55,278 bases of DNA from contig CAJTBO010000033.1 in NCBI GenBank assembly GCA_910573755.1, positions 1 through 55,278 on the forward strand, read 5' to 3'. The position numbers and the translations under genes are program-made. Positions 47 through 11,818 of this stretch are shown here, piece by piece. Position 1 is the first letter of the stretch, and each line of letters starts with the position of its first letter. The notes under the pieces were generated by a model, which searched no databases, was not told where the DNA came from, and was given only the letters and a program-made list of their open reading frames with translations. The stretch comes from Lachnospiraceae bacterium. GTDB lineage: Bacteria; Bacillota; Clostridia; Lachnospirales; Lachnospiraceae.

Positions 47-1255
47 TCAAGGTACTATATAGGAAGTCAGAGAGTTTCTAAAAACTCTTTTGACCCCAAC
101 ATCATAAAATAATTTAATCAGCATTTGAAATATTTCCAAAACCATTGTACCGCTTATCCTGCCCGAATAGCGATACAGAAGCGTAACCAGCTCATTGATC
201 TCAACAACCAATTTCTCTTTATCTGCATCCGCAATTATTTTTAGAAACCGTTTTCTAAATGCATCATCTACAAAACAGGCTGCTTCTAACTCTTCTTTGG
301 GGATATCTTCATATTTAATTATTTTATTTTTTCCCTTAATAACCTTATGATCTATACAAGCAGCGCACTCTCTGACACAGATATGAATATCACCAAAATC
401 TTCATATATGTTACTAATACCGATCGTAAAATTGATCTTTTGCAGAATATCATTTACAACAAGCAGTTTGTTTCTCACTTGGCTCAATATGTTTTTTCCC
501 TGTTCCAACGTGCCTCTGTCACTGTTAAACAAACAGTAAAAGCTATTCTCCATAAGTGTAGTCAGCATCTCTGTCCTGTCATTTTTCATCTCCTCCAGTA
601 CGATGTCTTTTATTTTCTGTCCCAAAAACTCCTGTAGAGATAACGTATTTTCTTCACTACTTAAAATGCATTCGATCTGTAGTAACTGCCATGCATTTCC
701 ATGAAATTTCAAATGATATTCTTCCAGAAACCTTTCTCTACTGAAAACCTTCGCTGACTGACCGCCCCCATCCAGTATGAGCGTCAACAGATTATCTTTG
801 ATTTCTTGCATGGATCGTAATGCCAGATCTTTGCTTTCCATCGTTCTGACAGCTTCTTTATCAATCAGATTAAGCCCTTTTAGCAGGGCACTCTCCAGTT
901 CCTCTTTCTGTATAGGCTTTAACAAATAATCTACCACTCTGTATTTCAATGCCTGATGTGCATACAAAAACTGGCTGTAGCCTGTAATTATAATCACTTT
1001 TATATCGGGAAATGCCTCATATAATCTTCTGATTAGTTCTATTCCGCTGAGTCCCGGCATTCTAATATCGGTAATCAGGAGATCAGGGGACAATTCTTCA
1101 CACATCGCAAATGCTCTGTTCCCGTCATTCGCAAATCCAATCACCTCTAGCCCGTATTCCTCCCAGTCAATCAACGCTTTGATCAACTTACAGATATGGT
1201 GTTCATCATCTGCTATGATAATCTTTCGTCGCCTTTCCTTTCCATCCTTTTTCAT
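47..1255 (-). CDS. YesN-like response regulator, lacking its DNA-binding domain
   Basis: Two-component response regulator. The N-terminal receiver domain (about residues 11-125) has the acidic pair D16/D17, phospho-acceptor D63 in LITDIRMPG, T91 and K113 in LLKPI. A long middle region (about 150-400) resembles the linker of YesN/AraC-type regulators. Those proteins usually end in an AraC helix-turn-helix and are over 500 residues; this one stops at 402 without it. In the neighbouring frame the last 48 nt of the window stay open (LKILHNPYEDKILHIY), so a frameshift near the stop is possible. It is the last gene of the glycyl radical enzyme operon in this window, 153 nt after the activase, with a good ribosome site (GGAAGGATGG). 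It presumably senses the operon substrate through a histidine kinase outside the window. The receiver is certain; regulon and intactness are not. Confidence 0.8.
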   Translation of the reverse strand: MKKDGKERRRKIIIADDEHHICKLIKALIDWEEYGLEVIGFANDGNRAFAMCEELSPDLLITDIRMPGLSGIELIRRLYEAFPDIKVIIITGYSQFLYAHQALKYRVVDYLLKPIQKEELESALLKGLNLIDKEAVRTMESKDLALRSMQEIKDNLLTLILDGGGQSAKVFSRERFLEEYHLKFHGNAWQLLQIECILSSEENTLSLQEFLGQKIKDIVLEEMKNDRTEMLTTLMENSFYCLFNSDRGTLEQGKNILSQVRNKLLVVNDILQKINFTIGISNIYEDFGDIHICVRECAACIDHKVIKGKNKIIKYEDIPKEELEAACFVDDAFRKRFLKIIADADKEKLVVEINELVTLLYRYSGRISGTMVLEIFQMLIKLFYDVGVKRVFRNSLTSYIVP

Positions 1256-1408: not shown

Positions 1409-2377
1409 TCAGAATTTATAAACAGGAATATCATACTCCGCCAAAACCCCATGTAGTTTAGCCATATGCTCCGCTGATGGAGCAACGATATCCTCCAACA
1501 GATATGCTCTGCCCAAACTGTAATACTTTCCCCTGCCCAGTTTATGATACGGAAGCAGTTCCATTCCTTTTATATTTCTGCACCCCGCAACAAAATGAGC
1601 GATTTCTTCTATTTCCTTGAGCTGATCATTAAATCCCGGAATGACCGGAACCCTGATAAAAAGTTTATTTCCATATGTCCCCACCAATTCATCCACATAT
1701 TTTATATTATTCAGTATTTTTACATTTTCCATTCCTGTCCATACCTGATGTTTTTCAGAGTTCATATGTTTGATATCCATAAACACCGTATTCAGATAGG
1801 GAACGATCTTTTCATAATCCTCTTTCTCTGCATATCCGCATGTCTCAATTGCCGTATCAATCCAGCGTTCCGTCAAAACTCTTACTAGAGCATAGATAAA
1901 TTCCGGCTGCGCCATTGGTTCTCCTCCTGATATCGTCACCCCACCATCAGATCTCTCATAAAATGGTACATCACGTTTCACCACTTCATATATTTCCCGA
2001 ACTGACATTTTTTCTCCAGTAACCTTTATGCATTTCACATAACATTTTTCTGTGCAGGGAAACGACTTTTCTATCAGGCTGCATTCGCCGCATATCTTCC
2101 GATCAGCTTTCAAATCTTCTCCGATTGCTCCGTATGGGCAGAATCTTGCACAGTTCATACACGCTATACACTTATCAGGGAAAAAACTCATTTCCGGCAA
2201 GAAGGACTGCGTTTCTGGATTACTGCACCACTTACATCTTAAATAACAGCCTTTTGTAAAAACAGTTGTTCTTACACCATTTCCGTCATTTATCGCATAC
2301 CGCTCAATATTAGCTGTCATTCCACAAATTTCCATCAATTCGTCAGCATTTCTCTTTACTATCTCAGCACGAATCAT
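1409..2377 (-). CDS. glycyl radical enzyme activating enzyme (radical SAM activase)
   Basis: Radical SAM activase that uses S-adenosylmethionine to abstract hydrogen from the glycine of a partner glycyl radical protein. The radical SAM cluster motif is KGCYLRCKWC (Cys44, Cys48, Cys51 from the chosen start). A ferredoxin-like insert follows with two cysteine sets (about 70-80 and 96-116), as in PflC/CutD/HpdA-type activases, then SGGEP near 150. The ATG at 2377 is preferred over one at 2440 because it has GAGG nine bases upstream and begins 22 nt after the permease stop, whereas the upstream start overlaps the permease. The 322-residue length fits the family. Its target is presumably the separate 84-residue glycyl radical subunit, which would make the activation partner a small free domain. 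It lies after the transporter genes rather than next to the enzyme. Confidence 0.93.
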   Translation of the reverse strand: MIRAEIVKRNADELMEICGMTANIERYAINDGNGVRTTVFTKGCYLRCKWCSNPETQSFLPEMSFFPDKCIACMNCARFCPYGAIGEDLKADRKICGECSLIEKSFPCTEKCYVKCIKVTGEKMSVREIYEVVKRDVPFYERSDGGVTISGGEPMAQPEFIYALVRVLTERWIDTAIETCGYAEKEDYEKIVPYLNTVFMDIKHMNSEKHQVWTGMENVKILNNIKYVDELVGTYGNKLFIRVPVIPGFNDQLKEIEEIAHFVAGCRNIKGMELLPYHKLGRGKYYSLGRAYLLEDIVAPSAEHMAKLHGVLAEYDIPVYKF

Positions 2378-2399
2378 ATCTTCCGACCTCAATTCTTTA

Positions 2400-3350
2400 T
2401 TATTTTTTCTTATAAAGTAATACCGCCAAAACGATGACAACTCCTTTTACAATCATCTGCGGATAAGAGGCAATTCCCATCAGGTTCATAATATTATAAA
2501 GTACCCCCATTAGCATTGCTCCCACAATCGTCTTTGAGACACTTCCCGAGCCACCATTCATGGATGCTCCCCCGATCACAACCGATGCAATAGCATCCAT
2601 CTCATATCCATCTCCTACCGTGGCTGTTCCCATACCTAGGCGCCCACAGAGAAGAATACCACCGATTGCAAAACATAGTCCTCCGAGCGCATAACTGAGT
2701 ACTAGGTAACTTCTTACCCTAATGCCTGCCAGATACGCAGTCTCTTTATTGCCTCCGATAGCATAAATACCACGCCCGAATCTGGTACGGTTCAACACAA
2801 ACAGAAATACCAGAAACACCACTATCATAACAAGTACCGGATTGGGAATCCCAAATGTGGAATCCTTCACCCATTTTGGCAAAAATGTTCCGTCTATTCT
2901 TCTGTTCTGCCCTGTCTGATACATGTATGCCGCGCCTTTTAAGATCGTAGTCATTGCAAGCGTTGCTATAAATGGTGCTATATTTAAAAACGCGACCATA
3001 GATCCTGAAACAGCTCCGATAGCAAATGCTAACAGCAATACAATAAAAACAGAAGATATTCCGTGTCCGCCCTGAATCAATCCTGCCGTCAGACAAACCA
3101 CAATACACACGTAAGCACCTGTCGAAAGGTCAATGCCCCCAGTTATAATGATAACTAACATTCCAATCGCACAGATCGCGTATATGGAGTTCTGAATCAG
3201 CACAGACAACAGGTTATTTTTTGTCAAAAACGCCGGTGACAAAAAACAACTTGCTACAAACAATATAATAAAAGCAATAATAACAAAATTAGATAATGCA
3301 AAATCAATAATTTTTTTAATTCCGTCTTTCTCTAGTTTGACTTTTTCCAT
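2400..3350 (-). CDS. ABC sugar permease, CUT2/RbsC type
   Basis: Inner-membrane permease of a carbohydrate-uptake type 2 ABC importer. It has about eight to ten hydrophobic segments. Family landmarks are GGIDLS near residue 90, IGGN followed by AGI in the cytoplasmic coupling loop, and the C-terminal VIGGASMNGGSGS stretch. At 316 residues it matches RbsC/MglC-like proteins. AGGAGG precedes the ATG and the gene starts 12 nt after the ATPase stop, so it is co-transcribed. CUT2 systems import monosaccharides and related small molecules (ribose, galactose, xylose, autoinducer-2); the substrate here is not determined, but the context makes it the probable feed for the glycyl radical enzyme. Confidence 0.93.
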   Translation of the reverse strand: MEKVKLEKDGIKKIIDFALSNFVIIAFIILFVASCFLSPAFLTKNNLLSVLIQNSIYAICAIGMLVIIITGGIDLSTGAYVCIVVCLTAGLIQGGHGISSVFIVLLLAFAIGAVSGSMVAFLNIAPFIATLAMTTILKGAAYMYQTGQNRRIDGTFLPKWVKDSTFGIPNPVLVMIVVFLVFLFVLNRTRFGRGIYAIGGNKETAYLAGIRVRSYLVLSYALGGLCFAIGGILLCGRLGMGTATVGDGYEMDAIASVVIGGASMNGGSGSVSKTIVGAMLMGVLYNIMNLMGIASYPQMIVKGVVIVLAVLLYKKK

Positions 3351-3362
3351 GTAAATCTCCTC

Positions 3363-4880
3363 CTAAGCAATTCCTGTCGCATAGCGCATGATTGAGTCTT
3401 CACTTAATTCTTCCTTTAACAGTTCTCCGCGTACTTTTCCTTCATACATTACATACACTCTATCGCTCATCCCGATCACTTCCGGCAAATCAGAAGAAAT
3501 CATGATTACTGTATTTCCCTTTGCTGCCATTTCTTTTATAATAGTATATATCTCATACCTTGCCCCTACGTCAACGCCTCTGGTAGGTTCATCCAGAATC
3601 AGAATACTTGGATTTATGGCAAGCCATTTTGCCAATACAACCTTCTGTTGGTTGCCGCCGCTTAAACTGCTCACAGCATTCTCGATATTGTCTGTTTTGA
3701 TTTGCAAATCCTCCTTCAATCCGTTCACAATAGCTTTTTCTTTTCTTGGATAAAGTACACCTTTTTTTATGATCCTAGACAGAGATGCCATCGATATGTT
3801 AAAGCGAATCGACTGCTTTAAAATTAATCCTGTTGTCTTTCTATCTTCTGTCACATAACCTATTCCCGCTCTGATTGCAACAGCCGGTGAATCAAACCTC
3901 ACCGTTTTTCCGTTCAATCTGATTATGCCTTTTCCCTTCATCTGATAAGCTCCTATGACAGCCTGCATCAGTTCAGTCCGCCCGGCTCCCAGCAGTCCCG
4001 ATATCCCAACGATCTCCCCGGATCTAAATTTCATGGAAACACCATCCACAATATTGGTATCGTATAGAGGATGGAGTACCGAATAATCAGAAATTTCCAG
4101 TGTAATGTCCCCAACCCTTGTTTCCATCTGCGGATACATATTCTCCATTTTCCTGCCCACCATCGCGGCTACCAATTCGTCCACTGTAATATCCCTTAGG
4201 TCGAAAGTATTTATCATCCTACCGTCACGCATGACGGACACTCTGTCAGCAAGTTTGAATACTTCATCCAGACGGTGAGTAATATAAATAATTGAAATAC
4301 CTGTTTTCTTAAGATTCTCCAACATATCCATCAGAAAATTTATCTCTCTCCCTGTCAGAGGTGCCGTCGGCTCGTCCAGAATCAGAACATTGCCACCCAG
4401 ATATACCGCCTTTGCGATTTCCACAAGCTGCTGCTGACCAACGCTTAAAAATTTAATTTTTGTCTTCACATTCATATCCAGTGAAAACTTGCTTAAAATA
4501 TCTTTTGCCTCCACATACATCCTCTTCCAATCCATCCCGAAGGCTGAGGTGGGCTGGTTTCCCAGAAAAATATTTTCCGCAATACTCAACTCCGGAATCA
4601 ATTCCAATTCTTGATGCACTATTGTGATCTTCTCTTTTCTAGCATCTTTGGGGGAACCTATTTTTACCTTGTTACCCTCCAAAAAAATTTCCCCCTTATA
4701 GGAATTTGTCGGGAACTTCCCCGTAAGTACGTTCATCAGAGTACTTTTCCCGGCTCCGTTCTCTCCGCACAAAGCATGGATTTCTCCCGATCTTACTTTA
4801 AAATTTACATGATCCACAGCTGTCAACCCGCCAAATTTTTTGGTAATATCCTTCATCTCTACCACATACTCATTACTCAT
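3363..4880 (-). CDS. ABC sugar importer ATP-binding protein, CUT2 type (duplicated nucleotide-binding domain)
   Basis: Energises the adjacent CUT2 importer. It is 505 residues with two fused ATPase domains. The first has Walker A GENGAGKST (about 39-47), the signature LSVGQQQ and Walker B LILDEP. The second has the degenerate Walker A GLLGAGRTEL, signature LSGGNQQK and LILDEPTRG, as in RbsA/MglA. The ATG at 4880 is chosen because AGGAGG lies six bases upstream; a TTG two codons earlier sits too close to that site. The gene lies between the binding protein and permease, separated from the former by a perfect palindrome. Confidence 0.94.
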   Translation of the reverse strand: MSNEYVVEMKDITKKFGGLTAVDHVNFKVRSGEIHALCGENGAGKSTLMNVLTGKFPTNSYKGEIFLEGNKVKIGSPKDARKEKITIVHQELELIPELSIAENIFLGNQPTSAFGMDWKRMYVEAKDILSKFSLDMNVKTKIKFLSVGQQQLVEIAKAVYLGGNVLILDEPTAPLTGREINFLMDMLENLKKTGISIIYITHRLDEVFKLADRVSVMRDGRMINTFDLRDITVDELVAAMVGRKMENMYPQMETRVGDITLEISDYSVLHPLYDTNIVDGVSMKFRSGEIVGISGLLGAGRTELMQAVIGAYQMKGKGIIRLNGKTVRFDSPAVAIRAGIGYVTEDRKTTGLILKQSIRFNISMASLSRIIKKGVLYPRKEKAIVNGLKEDLQIKTDNIENAVSSLSGGNQQKVVLAKWLAINPSILILDEPTRGVDVGARYEIYTIIKEMAAKGNTVIMISSDLPEVIGMSDRVYVMYEGKVRGELLKEELSEDSIMRYATGIA

Positions 4881-4910
4881 TTTCAACCTCCTATTTCAGT
4901 TTTTATGACA

Positions 4911-4962: not shown

Positions 4963-6201
4963 TCAGTATGTTGACGTCGAATCATAATACTCATCAACAT
5001 TCTCTGTCGTGACAAGGTCATTCATCACATAATAAGTGGAAGGCGTCGATACACCGTCTGCCTGTAATGCTGCCATATATACAGCCCATTTCCCCATCTG
5101 CCTCGGATCATTAAAAGCATCCGCCACTACACCTTTGTCTCCGTCCTTGATCCACTCCAGTACGGATTTTCTTCCGTCAATCGTACAGATCAATACATCA
5201 CCAAGCTTGTCTATCTGTTCGAGCGCAGCTACAGCACCCTGCGCGCCACCATCACATGCGGCAAATATGATATCCAGTTCCGGATTCGCCTGCATCACAT
5301 CAAGTGTCGCATTCATTGCCGGTTCAGGCAGCCATTGATAATACTGGTATGCTACGATATCCAGATTGTTTTTGCCATACTTATCCAGCATGTAGTCTGT
5401 CCATCCCATCACTTGTCCCCATCTGCGGTAATCGGATTCAGCCTCCTGGGGAGCAGAGGAAAGAACCAATGCTTTTACTTCGTCCTTCCAGCCGTATTTC
5501 TCATCATAGTAGCGTGCCAGTTCGAACCCTGACTTATAGCCGGAATTTTCTACATCTGCAGATACAAATGTATACGGCCCACTGAATTCAACTGCCTGAT
5601 TCACCACCGTCAATGGAATATCAGCCGCTACGATCGCATCTAAACCCACATTTGCAGAATTATAAGGATTCACGATAATGGAATCCATCCCCAGATTGAT
5701 CAGCGTCTCCACATCAGATATCTGTTGATTCATATCATCATTCGCGTCATAGATCGTCAGATTAACCCCCAGATAATCAGCCTCCGCCTTTGCAAAGTCC
5801 ACAAGCTGTTCATACCACTCAGACCCTGCGATCCTATGCTGTGAAAAGCCGATATTCATACCTTCAAACTGCTTCTCTGTCCCTATCATCTGTGTAGCCA
5901 AAGATCCCTTCTCTTCAGGAGTCGCCTGGAAAGATCCATCGACGATATCAGCCCCTTCAGGATCTATTGCCTGCGAATAGTCAATGGTTAATTTTGCCGT
6001 TCCTTCAAAAGCACCCTCTGCTTCTATTGCCTCTGCTACTGTTTCTCCTGCTCCTGTCGTTTCTTCTCCGGATTCTTCTGCGGGCGTTACCAATTCCCCC
6101 GTTTCTGTCACCGGTGCTCCGCTACCGCAGCCGGCAAGTACGGAAACTGCCATTACCGCAACAAGTACTAGACTGTTGACTTTTTTGAAATTCTTTTTCA
6201 T
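4963..6201 (-). CDS. sugar ABC transporter substrate-binding lipoprotein
   Basis: Extracytoplasmic binding protein of the CUT2 importer. The chosen start at 6201 has AGGAGG six bases upstream and gives a typical lipoprotein signal: positive MKKNFKK, a hydrophobic stretch, then lipobox LAGC at about residues 22-25. An Ala/Glu/Thr-rich tether (about 30-70) leads into a periplasmic-binding fold of type 1 (about 100-400), with motifs such as MNIGFSQ, SIIVNPYN and ADAFNDP as in ribose/galactose-type receptors. It is 412 residues. It follows the two glycyl radical enzyme genes directly. The ligand cannot be read from the sequence. Confidence 0.9.
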   Translation of the reverse strand: MKKNFKKVNSLVLVAVMAVSVLAGCGSGAPVTETGELVTPAEESGEETTGAGETVAEAIEAEGAFEGTAKLTIDYSQAIDPEGADIVDGSFQATPEEKGSLATQMIGTEKQFEGMNIGFSQHRIAGSEWYEQLVDFAKAEADYLGVNLTIYDANDDMNQQISDVETLINLGMDSIIVNPYNSANVGLDAIVAADIPLTVVNQAVEFSGPYTFVSADVENSGYKSGFELARYYDEKYGWKDEVKALVLSSAPQEAESDYRRWGQVMGWTDYMLDKYGKNNLDIVAYQYYQWLPEPAMNATLDVMQANPELDIIFAACDGGAQGAVAALEQIDKLGDVLICTIDGRKSVLEWIKDGDKGVVADAFNDPRQMGKWAVYMAALQADGVSTPSTYYVMNDLVTTENVDEYYDSTSTY

Positions 6202-6237
6202 CTCTTTCCTCCTTGTTATCATATTGTGATGATTGTA

Positions 6238-6492
6238 TTATAATTTCTCCTCAGTTCTTGCAATGATGTCTTCCTGTACATCTTTCGAGAGCTGTGTAAA
6301 ATAAGCGCTGTAGCCAGCCACACGAACCAGAAGATTGGCATATTTGTCTGGTTCCTTTTGTGCCTCTAACAATGTTTTTTTGCTCACTACATTAAACTGT
6401 ATCTGATTGCCACCCATAGCAAAATACTGGTCAATAATGCTTACAAATCTTTTTAAACCATCATTTCTGTTAATCTGTACTGTATTTTCCAT
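6238..6492 (-). CDS. stand-alone glycyl radical domain subunit of a split glycyl radical enzyme
   Basis: An 84-residue protein that corresponds entirely to the C-terminal glycyl radical domain. It contains GLKRFVSIIDQYF, the conserved QIQFNVV strand and the radical loop RVAGYSAYF, with the radical glycine at residue 60; it ends RTEEKL like full-length GREs. It has its own ATG and a ribosome site (AAAGGATGG, about 11 bases upstream) and lies 106 nt after the stop of a GRE core that lacks this domain, in a different frame. The known stand-alone relative is YfiD/GrcA, which replaces the damaged tail of pyruvate formate-lyase; here no full-length GRE is present, so this is probably the obligatory radical-carrying subunit. 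A recent split by mutation is possible but disfavoured by its own start signals and the unrelated spacer. Confidence 0.88.
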   Translation of the reverse strand: MENTVQINRNDGLKRFVSIIDQYFAMGGNQIQFNVVSKKTLLEAQKEPDKYANLLVRVAGYSAYFTQLSKDVQEDIIARTEEKL

Positions 6493-6536
6493 CTTTTATT
6501 CCATCCTTTCTTTTTTTATTGTTACTATTTCTTTTC

Positions 6537-6589
6537 CCGGTTTCCATGTCATCACAGAGTAACTCTTTCCTTCTCCATGATGACACCGG
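6537..6589 (-). promoter_or_regulatory. structured stem-loop between the two GRE subunit genes
   Basis: Outer arms CCGGT/ACCGG (6537-6541 with 6585-6589) and inner arms GTCATCA/TGATGAC (6548-6554 with 6578-6584) pair across the intergenic region. A small AGAG/CTCT hairpin sits in the loop and one side carries a bulge. There is no U-tract on the minus strand, so termination is unlikely. It may set the ratio of core to radical-domain message or act as a processing site; this is inference. Confidence 0.5.
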
Positions 6590-6598
6590 AACCTTCAT

Positions 6599-8839
6599 CT
6601 ATGACAATTCCTCCGGACTGAATTTCATGTTATAAAGAGAGCCGCAGGAGAATAACTCATTATGCAATTTCGCCACCGAAGCGATTGCCGCCGTCGGACC
6701 GTTAACGTCCGTGCCCCTCATCGGAGACTGGCCGTCCGCCACTGACATATAGGCATCACGTCCGTCCGGTGTCGCCCCGCATACATGGCCGAAAGGTGTA
6801 TTACTGGAGACCGTACTCGTGGAACAGTGTAGCGTTCCGCCAATTGGTCCTCTTCCATACCTGGTGTTTTTGTAAGAGGAAAGCTCTGTCGCGATCATCC
6901 CCAACATATCTCTCGCGATAAAATCCACCTCATCAACATCATTGCCATACTTGGGCACAGCCAGGCACATTGCTTTAATCTGCGGTCCTGTGGGATTTGT
7001 CTCCTCATCCTGCCAGTTGGTCTCCAGCGCATGTTGCAACTGCGCCCCTGTGACCGCTTTATCTTCGAAAACCAGCTTCTTGATCACATACAAGCTGTTA
7101 GCGATATTCGCTGTTCCGATTGTCTGCTGTCCTGTCAGGTCATACTTCGCCCCACCCTGCTTAATAGGCTTTCCGCGAGGAATCGTCGTGGTGGGGCAGG
7201 CAAAGATCGCTGCCATCGGCTCCTCCAGCATCTCCTCCCAGACCTGGTCTATCGTATTTTCCAGTATCGCTTCCATCTTAATATAGTATTTCATCTGATC
7301 CACAAAAGCGTCTTCTGCCTCCTGATAAGTTTCAAATGTTGCCAGAGTCTTTCCACTCTTATTCTTATGCAGGCAAATCCCTGTCCTCGGGTCTTTCCCA
7401 TTATAAAGAGACATTTCCAATGCTTTTGTGCAATTCAGCCAGGCTCCCCCGGTACGTCCACCCAATAATCCGGGTGCCCCTGGTTCAATACAGCCAATGA
7501 TACAATAATTGTATGCGTCTTTCATTTCATATCCACGGTTCATCATCGCCCTAGTGTAGGTCTCGTCATTAAAGATGGAAGGCAGACCAGTTCCAAGCCT
7601 CACCACTTCCGCTACACGCATTTTAAATTCCATAGGTGTCTTTTTATGAAAACGAACTGTCAAAGAAGGCTGTGGTATTCTTGTATTGTAGGTCGCATCC
7701 AGCGCGATATAACTCATATCGTTTGTAGCGTCATCCATAGTCTCCGGATCCACACCGCCGATTGTAAGGTTCTGGAACATCGGCACGCCGCGAAAGAAAT
7801 CCGTATCTCCCCAACTCCGCACCTTATTACAGGTATATATCTGGAGGAAGAAATTCTCTGTCAGTTCCGTCGCCAGTTCTTTTGTCAGGGTACCATCCAT
7901 AATGCCTGCCTCATAGTATGGCTGCATAAACTGATCAAAACGCCCAAAGGAAATACCCGCTCCATTGTCTTCGATCTGGATACAGATATGTGTCAGGATG
8001 ATGAACTGCAATGCCTCCCTGAAATTGCGTGCAGGATTTTCAGGTACATGACGGCAGATATCTGCCATCTCCAGAAGTTCTGTCTTTCTCACAGGATCGC
8101 TTTCCTTCGCTGCCGACTTCTCTGCAAGATCTGCATACCTCGCAGCAAATTTGATGACTGCCTTCGCACTGATCTTTGCCGCCTCATAAAAATCTCTTTT
8201 CTTAATGCATTCAGGATCATTCTTATAATCAATCTTCCTTAGCCCTTCCTCACATCCCCTGATGATCTCCTTCACACCATGTTGAATCAGCCACGGATGA
8301 TCAGGTGCAAAATGTCCGTCACCACCCTGAAAATATGCTCCAATATCAGCCGCTTTGATGTGGAAATGTGTATCGACAGCTTCCTTCGGTAGTCTGGTGC
8401 AGAGTATATCTGTAACCGTTTTTCCCTTCCACCAGTCACAAATTTCCTGAACAACGGTTTTATCCTCCTCCGGAAAGATATAGCGATCCTCCGGACGTTT
8501 ATCCGGAAAATACGGATCACCTTTTATCATCTCATCTTCCATCCACTGTGCGTCAAACTCTGGAAATAACGGCGCCCACCGCGGATGAGAGGCATGATTT
8601 CCTGCAAACAGGCTTCCTGGCATAATATATATACTCATATTCTGCAGTACATGGTCGATCGCATTTGCCCTCCTGACGATCGGCGCCTGATCTGGATGTT
8701 CTCTGTAATATTCTGTGAGCAGCCTAGCTCTTTCAACACAGATACCATATGTAGAAGAAGTGATATATTGATATAATCTGTCAATACGTTCCGTCCTTAC
8801 GGGCTGTGTCGAAATCTGATAAGAATCTTTTACTTTCAT
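6599..8839 (-). CDS. glycyl radical enzyme catalytic core, missing the glycyl radical domain (split GRE large subunit)
   Basis: Large subunit of a pyruvate-formate-lyase-like radical enzyme, 746 residues. It shows the GRE N-terminal region, the barrel, and the active-site loop with GCIEP (Cys450, Glu452). A single cysteine followed two residues later by glutamate is typical of GRE dehydratases, lyases and decarboxylases rather than pyruvate formate-lyase, which has adjacent cysteines. Near the end come RYGRGPIGGT and SLYNMKFSPEELS, the point where other family members run straight into the radical domain; here a TAG follows. The radical domain is the next gene. Start at 8839 is chosen from AGGAGG five bases upstream; an ATG at 8902 lacks such a site. 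First gene of the operon with a CUT2 importer, activase and regulator. Oxygen-sensitive cytoplasmic enzyme; the substrate is unknown. Confidence 0.92.
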   Translation of the reverse strand: MKVKDSYQISTQPVRTERIDRLYQYITSSTYGICVERARLLTEYYREHPDQAPIVRRANAIDHVLQNMSIYIMPGSLFAGNHASHPRWAPLFPEFDAQWMEDEMIKGDPYFPDKRPEDRYIFPEEDKTVVQEICDWWKGKTVTDILCTRLPKEAVDTHFHIKAADIGAYFQGGDGHFAPDHPWLIQHGVKEIIRGCEEGLRKIDYKNDPECIKKRDFYEAAKISAKAVIKFAARYADLAEKSAAKESDPVRKTELLEMADICRHVPENPARNFREALQFIILTHICIQIEDNGAGISFGRFDQFMQPYYEAGIMDGTLTKELATELTENFFLQIYTCNKVRSWGDTDFFRGVPMFQNLTIGGVDPETMDDATNDMSYIALDATYNTRIPQPSLTVRFHKKTPMEFKMRVAEVVRLGTGLPSIFNDETYTRAMMNRGYEMKDAYNYCIIGCIEPGAPGLLGGRTGGAWLNCTKALEMSLYNGKDPRTGICLHKNKSGKTLATFETYQEAEDAFVDQMKYYIKMEAILENTIDQVWEEMLEEPMAAIFACPTTTIPRGKPIKQGGAKYDLTGQQTIGTANIANSLYVIKKLVFEDKAVTGAQLQHALETNWQDEETNPTGPQIKAMCLAVPKYGNDVDEVDFIARDMLGMIATELSSYKNTRYGRGPIGGTLHCSTSTVSSNTPFGHVCGATPDGRDAYMSVADGQSPMRGTDVNGPTAAIASVAKLHNELFSCGSLYNMKFSPEELS

Positions 8840-8947
8840 ACGTCCCTCCTGTTTCTTAATAAAATTAAATATTACTGTATTTATTCTAGTGAATATGTCC
8901 ATTTCACGAAACCGAGGATTTTTAGTTAAAAGTGTCAGATTTTAAGA

Positions 8948-8976
8948 TAGCCAATTCACTCTTCCTGTGCTAGAAT
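8948..8976 (+). promoter_or_regulatory. probable promoter of the flavodiiron gene
   Basis: -35 TAGCCA (8948-8953) and -10 TAGAAT (8971-8976) are separated by 17 bp, with a TGC extension before the -10. Predicted transcription start is near 8983, which rules out the ATG at 8975 and supports the one at 9020. Confidence 0.55.
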
Positions 8977-9019
8977 GAAAATGAATATATCAACCGGAAA
9001 AGAAAGGGGAACTTTTATT

Positions 9020-10171
9020 ATGTTTATCACAAATGACATCAAATATCTTGGCGTGAATGACCATGATATCGACTTATTTGAGGGCCAGTATGACGTACCG
9101 AACGGCATGGCATACAACTCTTATGTGATCTGTGACGAAAAGACCGCCGTATTGGATACGGTAGACGCCAGCTTTACGGATACCTGGCTGAAAAATCTGG
9201 AGGAAGCGCTCTCTCAAAAGGCGCCTGATTATCTGATCGTTCAGCATATGGAACCCGATCATTCCGCCGGCATCCGCGTATTGATGGAGAAATACCCTGC
9301 AGCCACCATCGTTGCGACTGCCCAGGCATTCCGCATGATGAAACAGTTTTTCGGAGAAGAATACGAAGGCCGTCGTATCGTTGCCGCAGAAAAAAGCACA
9401 CTGTCTCTCGGCAGACATACCCTCACCTTTGTCACCGCTCCGATGGTACACTGGCCGGAGGTTATGGTCACTTACGATGATGCGGACAAGGTACTGTTTT
9501 CCGCCGACGCCTTCGGTAAGTTCGGCGCGCTGGATGTGGAGGAAGACTGGGCATGTGAGGCCCGCCGCTATTATATCGGCATTGTGGGAAAATACGGCAT
9601 GCAGGTACAGGCCCTTCTGAAAAAGGCTGCTGAACTGGATATTCAGAAGATCTGCCCGCTCCACGGTCCCGTACTCACCGAAGATCTCGGCTATTATCTG
9701 AACCTCTACAATATCTGGTCTTCCTACGGCGTGGAATCGGAAGGCGTTATGATCGCCTATACCTCCGTCTACGGCCACACAAAAGCCGCCGCCAAGCTGC
9801 TGGCAGAATTACTGGAAAAGAAGGGATGCCCGAAAGTTGTCCTTACCGATCTGGCAAGGGAAGACATGGCGGAAGCCGTGGAAGACGCCTTCCGCTACGG
9901 AAAACTGGTGCTCGCCACCACTACTTATAATATGGACATCTTCCCTTTTATGAAACAGTTTATTGAACATCTGACAGAGCGCAATTTCCAGAACCGCACG
10001 ATCGCTGTCATCGAAAACGGCTCCTGGGCGCCTGCCGCAGCCCGCACCATAAAGAAAATGCTGGAAAACAGTCAGAATATCACCTATACGGAAACTGCCG
10101 TGACGATCAAATCCGCACTGACGGAAGAAAATAAGGCGGAGCTGGATAAACTGGCAGATGAACTGTTATGA
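9020..10171 (+). CDS. fprA: flavodiiron protein (FprA-type A flavoprotein)
   Basis: Reduces oxygen to water and/or nitric oxide to nitrous oxide in anaerobes. The 383-residue protein has an N-terminal metallo-beta-lactamase-like di-iron domain with ligands in HMEPDH (His76, Glu78, Asp80, His81), a further His in PMVHWPE, Asp in LFSADAFG and His in CPLHGP. A C-terminal flavodoxin domain begins around 240 with YTSVYGHT as FMN phosphate loop. Start at 9020 is chosen for AAAGGGG upstream and because the likely promoter overlaps the earlier ATG. It is divergent from the GRE operon, sharing about 180 bp of intergenic DNA; an oxygen-scavenging enzyme beside an oxygen-labile radical enzyme is sensible, but a functional link is inference. 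Confidence 0.95.
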   Translation: MFITNDIKYLGVNDHDIDLFEGQYDVPNGMAYNSYVICDEKTAVLDTVDASFTDTWLKNLEEALSQKAPDYLIVQHMEPDHSAGIRVLMEKYPAATIVATAQAFRMMKQFFGEEYEGRRIVAAEKSTLSLGRHTLTFVTAPMVHWPEVMVTYDDADKVLFSADAFGKFGALDVEEDWACEARRYYIGIVGKYGMQVQALLKKAAELDIQKICPLHGPVLTEDLGYYLNLYNIWSSYGVESEGVMIAYTSVYGHTKAAAKLLAELLEKKGCPKVVLTDLAREDMAEAVEDAFRYGKLVLATTTYNMDIFPFMKQFIEHLTERNFQNRTIAVIENGSWAPAAARTIKKMLENSQNITYTETAVTIKSALTEENKAELDKLADELL

Positions 10172-10444: not shown

Positions 10445-11818
10445 ATGCACAGGGGAAAAAACAAAAAGAAGATCATCATTACTATAAGTATTCTGCTGCT
10501 ATTGTGCGGGGCAGGGGCCATCGCCCTGCTGATATACCGCCATATGGACATAAGCAGTACAGCAATGCCTGTCATTGCTTCCGCAGATACCCATAATGAC
10601 AATGACCTGCAGACAGCAAATACCGGATCAGAAGACGGTGAAGCGACAGAAACAGCGTCAGATACAGATACAGATACAGATACAGATACAGATACAGATA
10701 CAGATACAGATACAGATACAGATACAGATACAGATACAGATACAGATACAGATAATATTATCCTGCCCGAACGAATTAAAGTCAAGGGAATCTACGTCAC
10801 CGGCCCCACTGCCGGAAGCGCTTCTGTGAATGATCTGATCAGGCTGATCGACGAGACCGAACTAAACACCATGGTCATCGATGTGAAAAACGATGAGGGT
10901 CAGATCACATACCAGATGGATCTGGAAACAGCACAGGATATGGACGCCTGTGTCAGTTATATCGGCGATATGGAATCTCTGATGGCAACGTTAAAGGAAC
11001 ATGGTATTTACACGATAGCCAGAATCGTCTGTTTCAAGGACCCTTATCTGGCACAAAACTACCCGGACCTCGCGCTGAAAAAAGCCGACGGCACACCGTT
11101 GACGGATGCCTACGGGCTGGCATGGGTCAATCCCTGCAAGGAGGAAGTGTGGGAATACCTGACCGAAGTTGCCGCAGCGGCTGCAGATGCCGGCTTTGAC
11201 GAGATCCAGTATGACTATATGCGTTTTCCCATCGGCAGTGATGCGGATGCGGCTGACTACGGCATAGCCATGGAAAGCGGTACCAAAGAACAGATGATCA
11301 CGGATTTCCTGACCTATGCGTCAGAAGAACTGCATGAAAAAGGAATCGTCGTCACAGCGGACGTATTTGGAACCATTATCGGAAATGATGTAGATATCGA
11401 ACGCGTGGGGCAGGATTATACGGCTCTGGCCGGCACGGTCGATGTCCTGTCCCCTATGATATATCCCTCGCATTACGGCACCGGCGTGTACGGTTACCGC
11501 GTGCCCGATGCGGAGCCCTACGGAACCGTTCTCGCGGCGCTCAACGATTCCGCCGAGGAATTGCTGGCGCTGGAGGAGGCGGACAGGGCCATTGTACGCC
11601 CCTGGCTGCAGGCTTTCACCGCAACCTGGGTGGACGGACATATCTCCTACGGCGGAGAACAGATCAGACAGCAGATTCAGGCGGTCTATGACGCGGGATA
11701 TGAAGAGTGGATTCTCTGGAATTCCCGCAATCATTATTCATCCGACGGTCTGCTCTTTGCTGATGAGACGGATACAGACAGCGGCCCTGAAAGCCCCGAT
11801 ACAGAAAATACGGATTAA
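10445..11818 (+). CDS. membrane-anchored putative glycoside hydrolase (DUF4015 type) with Asp-Thr repeat linker
   Basis: 457 residues. One N-terminal membrane segment (about 9-27, IIITISILLLLCGAGAIALL) is followed by an acidic tether containing 15 consecutive Asp-Thr pairs plus one Asp (residues 73-103). A TIM-barrel domain (about 113-440) resembles the DUF4015/GH-like family: KGIYVTG, VIDVKNDEG, IARIVCFKD, AWVNPC, EIQYDYMRFP, ADVFG and SPMIYPSHYG. Such proteins are predicted polysaccharide-active enzymes outside the cell; activity is unproven. The ATG has GAGG seven bases upstream. The 3' end overlaps the end of lysA by four bases in convergent orientation. The linker is encoded by a pure hexanucleotide repeat and so can change length without losing frame. 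Confidence 0.85.
   Translation: MHRGKNKKKIIITISILLLLCGAGAIALLIYRHMDISSTAMPVIASADTHNDNDLQTANTGSEDGEATETASDTDTDTDTDTDTDTDTDTDTDTDTDTDTDTDNIILPERIKVKGIYVTGPTAGSASVNDLIRLIDETELNTMVIDVKNDEGQITYQMDLETAQDMDACVSYIGDMESLMATLKEHGIYTIARIVCFKDPYLAQNYPDLALKKADGTPLTDAYGLAWVNPCKEEVWEYLTEVAAAAADAGFDEIQYDYMRFPIGSDADAADYGIAMESGTKEQMITDFLTYASEELHEKGIVVTADVFGTIIGNDVDIERVGQDYTALAGTVDVLSPMIYPSHYGTGVYGYRVPDAEPYGTVLAALNDSAEELLALEEADRAIVRPWLQAFTATWVDGHISYGGEQIRQQIQAVYDAGYEEWILWNSRNHYSSDGLLFADETDTDSGPESPDTENTD
10661..10753 (+). repeat. (GATACA)15 in-frame microsatellite
   Basis: Fifteen uninterrupted copies of GATACA plus a terminal GAT, encoding (Asp-Thr)15-Asp. The period of six preserves the frame, so slippage would alter the surface tether length two residues at a time. 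Its antisense reads as a long Ser-Val run, an artefact. Confidence 0.97.

Follow-up and report, generated by a model that had tools for sequence, protein, structure and literature searches.

The glycyl radical enzyme (GRE) encoded on contig CAJTBO010000033.1 of a Lachnospiraceae bacterium (assembly GCA_910573755.1; the analyzed stretch of 55,278 nucleotides (nt) is called the window here) is divided over two genes. One encodes a 746-residue catalytic core from which the radical domain is absent (6599..8839, minus strand), and the other an 84-residue glycyl-radical subunit, P0001 (6238..6492, minus strand). We put the probability that the locus encodes a two-polypeptide GRE of the glycerol/propanediol-dehydratase (PFL2) class at roughly 0.8. 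The gene is parted at the linker that precedes the radical domain, and a clade of relatives keeps the halves in one operon with an importer, an activase, and a two-component system. All elements of the original prediction were recovered, namely the core with Cys450 and Glu452, the small gene with Gly60, the 106-nt spacer, and the different reading frames, and the separation of core and radical domain is real biology.

The core carries Cys450 and Glu452 in a GCIEP motif, has a GGAGG ribosome site adjoining its ATG, and terminates in ...GSLYNMKFSPEELS followed by a TAG stop codon. Beyond the spacer (6493..6598, minus strand), the small open reading frame (ORF) begins with its own ATG, preceded by the purine-rich, ribosome-site-like stretch AAAGGATGG, and holds the radical glycine within RVAGYSAYF. 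The PFL-like catalytic domain (PF02901) is found in the core with an E value of 3e-192 (641 bits). The Gly_radical domain (PF01228) is split over the two chains, with positions 1-46 at the core C-terminus and positions 44-106 in the small ORF; the E value of the latter match, 9e-21, excludes chance. When glycerol dehydratase 1r8w is used as a reference, the core alignment ends at residue 710 and that of the small protein (from its residue 9) begins at residue 712, so the pair together covers the fused enzyme. The NCBIfam model TIGR01774 has a cut-off of 678.2 bits, which the core alone does not reach (586.2 bits), and the small protein scores 92.1 bits. The best PDB relatives of the core are B12-independent glycerol/propanediol dehydratases (476 bits for 1r8w). 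The NCBIfam equivalogs for CutC, HypD, HpsG/HpfG, indoleacetate decarboxylase, and Hpd all remain below cut-off, the best at 489 of 1000.

The survey of related loci comprises 18 rows; three of these (L022, L051, and L069) repeat the Diplocloster locus, which leaves 15 different loci. At 11 of the 15 a small gene lies downstream of the core, and at L012, L015, and L059 the contig edge lies within or directly after the core. With the window counted, 13 of the 14 loci that run far enough have the small gene downstream: the 11 surveyed ones, L106 (genome G619), which comes from another family and is 65% identical, and L130 (G385), where the core end is joined to the small gene. Across the 11 loci the spacer is shortest at L058 (a few nt) and longest at L014 (about 134 nt), core and small gene are found in every one of the three relative frames, and TAG, TGA, and TAA all serve as core stops. 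Such variety argues against a common read-through or frameshift, and the presence of the same arrangement in 12 other genomes rules out a sequencing error. The original prediction had reckoned with resequencing that would reveal one uninterrupted frame; instead, the interruption recurs elsewhere with other spacers and frames. It had also reckoned with close relatives that carry an intact fused gene, and no fused core is present among those compared at 54% identity or more. The nearest fused relative found is an 844-residue frame (L107) that is 46% identical.

The co-occurrence of truncated core and small gene, proposed earlier as a check, is borne out in a sample of 397 Lachnospiraceae genomes. 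The core search gives any match in 18 of them, 11 of which hold frames of fused size (802-829 residues) that are 34-40% identical; cores with at least 54% identity occur in seven. P0001-type small genes (E up to 1e-26) are found in the same seven genomes and nowhere else in the sample. These seven are related and do not represent seven independent events. All 12 core-bearing genomes searched for it have exactly one P0001-type small gene (60-100% identical), including two genomes with two cores. Further P0001 matches in these 12 genomes are at most 59% identical and mostly lie in long frames. Twelve of them are short frames (90-128 residues, 35-50% identical), and the two that were checked, both from the window's genome, are of the pyruvate formate-lyase (PFL) type. 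Separately, G003, G005, and G008 each contain two short radical frames beyond the window type.

The Cys-X-Glu motif is kept in 13/13 split cores aligned and RVAGYSAYF in 11/11 split small proteins. Ratios of nonsynonymous to synonymous substitution rates (dN/dS) are 0.031 and 0.035 in two pairs of cores and 0.013-0.043 in four pairs of small genes, indicating that both are under purifying selection; the pairs used have high dS (1.3-2.2), and the remaining pairs are saturated. A tree was built from 49 cores, 13 of them split and 36 fused, after removal of five partial or duplicate rows; it groups the split cores in a single clade with a support of 100/100. The original prediction described the radical domain as an obligatory, exchangeable subunit. 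Its standing as a separate subunit is supported by the distribution among genomes, and its exchangeability is suggestive.

Three other explanations can be weighed against a two-chain enzyme. The small gene could be a YfiD/GrcA-type spare part for a full-length GRE, with the truncated core a decaying pseudogene. Stand-alone radical domains are known as such spares, and the window's genome does hold an unlinked second PFL-type small protein. However, the truncation is clade-wide, with Cys and Glu intact and low dN/dS, and in the 397-genome sample the small gene occurs only alongside the truncated core. P0001 also fails the curated cut-offs for GrcA3 (72 of 158 bits), GrcA2 (50 of 145), and GrcA (47 of 170). 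The original prediction had named a full-length GRE of the same subtype elsewhere in the genome as a refutation, and one was looked for in the assembly, which is 95% complete. The PF01228 scan yields eight matches, corresponding to the window pair (two), a split PFL pair (two), the unlinked PFL-type small gene, and three fused enzymes, all of other subtypes. The closest fused enzyme, at C16:16429, is glycerol-dehydratase-like and 34% identical over the core; the others are a short GRE at C11 (28%) and the anaerobic ribonucleotide reductase at C3. A spare part is thus improbable.

We consider it very improbable that the core functions independently of a glycyl radical, in binding or regulation for instance, with some other role for the small protein. 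The argument for it comes from the active site, where the core has GAGIS and GGRTGGAWLN in place of the GHSIS and HD segment (WHD) of glycerol dehydratase 1r8w, which we take to be substrate-site motifs; the alignment shows that these segments are also unlike those of the YbiW-like fused clade. Against it stand Cys450, Glu452, and the radical motif, kept throughout the 13 cores and 11 small proteins aligned, and the activase, found in the operon at 10 of 12 loci compared; at the other two the contig ends first. The altered motifs probably reflect a different substrate. Least probable, and very remote in our estimate, is that the halves are joined after transcription by stop-codon read-through, frameshift, or protein ligation into an ordinary fused GRE. 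Core and small gene do share one frame at L016, L056, L057, and L058, with at least one stop between them, but the remaining seven of the 11 have the pair in one of the other two frames, the core stop varies among TAG, TGA, and TAA, and the small genes have their own starts and ribosome-site-like sequences.

Several observations weigh against a functional two-chain dehydratase-class enzyme, including the departure of its active-site motifs from glycerol dehydratase just described. L010 is the one exception among the 14 loci: its contig continues for 181 nt beyond the core stop and the small gene is not within that stretch; in this genome it lies at the end of another contig. The AlphaFold2 model of the pair is too poor for docking to be judged, with a mean predicted local distance difference test (pLDDT) of 64.6, most of the radical domain below 60, and residues 660-778 below 50. 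The input was L016 (Faecalicatena orotica), with core and small gene in one frame and two stops read as Gly, and an alignment of 18 rows; viral contigs scanned for relatives of the core and small protein to deepen the alignment contained none. Foldseek retrieves GRE folds with this model (best 5i2g, E 7e-41), but at a root-mean-square deviation of about 10 Å. The radical-domain tree, built on 73 columns of 48 rows after removal of one duplicate, parts split from fused sequences at a weak support of 74/78 and does not settle whether the gene was broken in place or another radical domain was recruited. Finally, in a study of artificial PFL pairs, one that resembles the active engineered pair discussed below was activated poorly and gave no measurable binding (PMC8683613).

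The strongest evidence against a subunit reserved for one core comes from three loci, L011 (Diplocloster agilis), L013, and L014, where two tandem truncated cores precede one small gene. Cys-X-Glu is present in both cores at each locus; the first core of L014 is clipped by the contig edge. The L013 cores are 82% identical with saturated synonymous sites, and are therefore old paralogues; those of L011 show a dS of 0.34 and a dN/dS of 0.12. The P0001 search of the L013 genome (G511) detects no second stand-alone radical domain. The small protein probably serves both cores at these loci, and this genomic evidence for exchangeability is suggestive. Identity of the core C-termini was also considered as a signal of sharing and rejected: the last 46 residues are 96-100% identical in tandem copies, yet 89-100% identical between other cores.

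The PFL of the window's genome is also split. The locus (L049, 6661-10192; G000:C16) encodes a 678-residue PFL core (TIGR01255, 1091 bits), a 71-residue ORF, an 80-residue radical protein that barely exceeds the GrcA3 cut-off (159.3 vs 158), and a PflA-like activase. The core matches E. coli PFL to residue 681 and the small protein matches from residue 680. A PFL core search of 396 Lachnospiraceae genomes gives a match in 284 (E up to 1e-200), and among the 150 matches listed, 134 frames of at most 738 residues align through core residue 674-678, which is the split pattern. A separate radical gene is present at 50/50 loci checked by sequence (30, including the window's own genome, and then 20). 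These comprise 40 of the 134, G422 with a longer frame, and nine from the class sample; because they were selected by their resemblance to the split core, the count does not estimate frequency. PFL frames of fused size also occur in the same family and class.

The split of the window enzyme and that of PFL are distinct traits, as G007 has a split PFL (L073) and no window-type core (best 36%), and G619 has the window-type split (L106) with a 744-residue PFL frame. PFL and the window enzyme belong to different GRE classes, and the simplest reading of the sequences is at least two separate fissions. PFL without its radical domain may already be under study by others, as a natural protein or a construct: PDB entries 38la and 38lb (formate acetyltransferase) score 1081 and 1120 bits with the split PFL core, compared with 974 for E. 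coli PFL, and neither is matched by the radical-domain query.

The ORF between the two PFL genes is an unannotated protein of about 55-75 residues (L049 8830-9045, with homologues in L072-L101). Its first half resembles, by eye, the start of a radical domain, and its second half is Cys-rich with a CxxPTLxxGLD motif; no Pfam, NCBIfam, or PHROG entry matches it. It adjoins the split PFL genes at 30/30 and 7/20 loci, and in L114 it is placed after the radical gene. Among 13 loci without it, 10 have cores that end in a similar Cys-containing tail (L109, L110, L112, L115, and L118-L123), six of them with the full motif. The protein might act as a placeholder for the radical domain. Elsewhere in the genome, L050 7423-7665 (minus strand; G000:C35) encodes a second PFL-type radical subunit with a ribosome-site-like stretch and no core nearby, possibly a spare for the split PFL.

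For the window enzyme, we propose that the small protein would dock into the core in the same way as the tethered domain of a fused enzyme, and that the activase would place the radical on Gly60 after the complex has formed. Gly60 would then oxidize Cys450 to a thiyl, and Cys450 and Glu452 would perform an elimination on an imported substrate, perhaps sugar- or polyol-like. An untethered subunit could serve two cores from one small gene, and a small protein cleaved by oxygen could be replaced without a new core, the repair that the original prediction proposed. The original prediction also had the activase acting on a free small domain, and this is not supported; the YfiD precedent speaks against it. 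In that study, the one biochemical precedent (Andorfer 2021), YfiD carried a radical only when a PFL variant was present (PMC8683613). The same source reports a kcat of 204 s-1 for the engineered pair tPFL(1-695):truncYfiD(61-127), indicating that a non-covalent radical domain can work at full rate and that binding and activation are the weak steps (PMC8683613). A natural split must overcome both weaknesses in some other way. The natural PFL break lies about 15 residues before the engineered one, for which tPFL ends at residue 695, so the natural PFL small protein probably carries one extra helix; we would guess that this helix may provide stable binding.

A broader proposal treats the radical subunit as a protein cofactor that exchanges freely: it would be loaded once bound, serve different cores, and be replaced after oxygen cleavage. 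Such a design would have originated at least twice among gut Clostridia and would be how PFL normally occurs in a large part of Lachnospiraceae. We advance it tentatively and lean slightly against it as a whole.

The pair belongs to an operon in the order core, small gene, sugar-type periplasmic binding protein (Peripla_BP_4; 4963..6222), ribose/xylose-type ATP-binding cassette (ABC) transporter ATPase (3363..4883), ribose-type ABC transporter permease (2400..3350), radical-S-adenosylmethionine GRE activase (1409..2377; TIGR02494, 322 bits over a cut-off of 174), and response regulator of a two-component system (47..1255), all on the minus strand. A histidine kinase is also in the operon of several relatives. 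At L104 and L105 the order is altered with most parts present, and no other metabolic enzyme common to the compared loci was seen. The response regulator is curtailed near the contig end: it has 402 residues, stops 46 nt from that end, and is without the AraC-type DNA-binding domain of its L018 relative (550 residues), and thus reflects an assembly error or truncation. Adjoining the GRE and divergent from it, window positions 8975-10171 encode a flavodiiron-type protein with ODP (metallo-beta-lactamase-like) and flavodoxin domains, a neighbor found only in the window, L009, and L010 among 12 loci. Positions 10445-11818 encode a predicted protein that begins with a hydrophobic stretch and contains a long Asp-Thr dipeptide run (DTDTDT...). 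In L016 of Faecalicatena orotica, an alpha-L-rhamnosidase gene (1932-4514) lies upstream of the split GRE operon and forms a singleton cluster among the compared loci.

A conserved element of 54 nt (8883..8936, minus strand) lies 43 nt before the core start and agrees with the L009 element at 37 of 54 positions (best of 200 shuffles, 31). At 43-64 nt before other cores, the matches to the L009 element are 34 (L009), 34 (L010), 36 (L011, second core), and 35 (L014) of 54, and at L013 they reach 38/54 before the first core and 47/54 before the second. Every counted match exceeds the best of 200 shuffles (29-32). The element is not above shuffles before the first core of L011 or before the cores of L016, L102, L103, L104, and L105, and it is absent before the window's small gene. 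A copy also lies between core and small gene in L009 (9983-10036), and the same stretch is found in L010 after 11241, behind the core. The L009 copy implies that the small gene may have its own transcription; the two copies are perhaps the remnant of a lost second core or the promoter of the small gene itself. The upstream element is possibly the operon promoter, though this is a guess, and consensus promoter scans of the window and L009 do not list it.

Promoter-like sites number three around the window's small gene, compared with 1.2 in shuffles (standard deviation 1.0), two vs 1.7 around that of L009, and three vs 1.5 upstream of the window core. None of these is convincing, and the scan around the window's small gene shows no terminator. 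One spacer site on the coding strand (6552-6524, 9/12) overlaps a predicted RNA hairpin at about 6539-6593 (z -5.0). The hairpin was rejected as a feature of the system, as the four other spacers folded do not match it in strength, with z values of 0.3 (L009), -0.1 (L013), -1.6 (L014), and -0.6 (L057).

The window enzyme shares with the PFL2 class (1r8w, 5i2g, and YbiW/PflD) its family, the Cys-X-Glu motif, a homologous radical domain, and a nearby radical-SAM activase. In 1r8w and 5i2g the radical domain is in the same chain, whereas here it is a separate gene. Multi-subunit GREs such as 4-hydroxyphenylacetate decarboxylase and the benzylsuccinate/alkylsuccinate synthases also offer a likeness, but their extra subunits are accessory, and in 2y8n, 4pkc, and 9o8u the P0001 match places the radical domain in the large chain. 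GrcA repairs full-length PFL that has been cleaved by oxygen, whereas the window core is always without a radical domain, so its small protein is presumably required from the start. The split PFL shares the break before the radical domain, the separate radical gene, and, in the window's genome, an adjoining activase; it differs in being PFL proper, a deep paralogue whose core often has a Cys-rich tail or is accompanied by a third small protein, and probably arose by an independent fission. NCBIfam names the GrcA3 small protein an autonomous cofactor. One report describes YbiW and PflD as cleaving 1,5-anhydrohexitol phosphates after uptake by a phosphotransferase system, in contrast to the ABC importer of the window locus (PMC12441222). 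The closest likeness for a stand-alone radical domain given in trans to a GRE core is YfiD/GrcA, which provides the precedent of two-chain activity (PMC8683613).

Among the titles listed by a search of the open-access literature, with subscription journals and preprints outside its scope, none concerns a naturally split GRE. The usual description of a GRE is of a single chain that irreversibly loses its radical domain to oxygen and can be rescued by YfiD. A natural GRE with the radical on a separate protein allows the timing of the activase, exchange during turnover, and the cost of oxygen to be tested. For annotation, such small genes are now named spare cofactors or fall below curated models, though they are probably required subunits. 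If the subunit is exchangeable, one oxygen hit would cost only an 84-residue protein, and the use of this design by PFL in a major gut family would be relevant to the survival of strict anaerobes during short exposures to oxygen.

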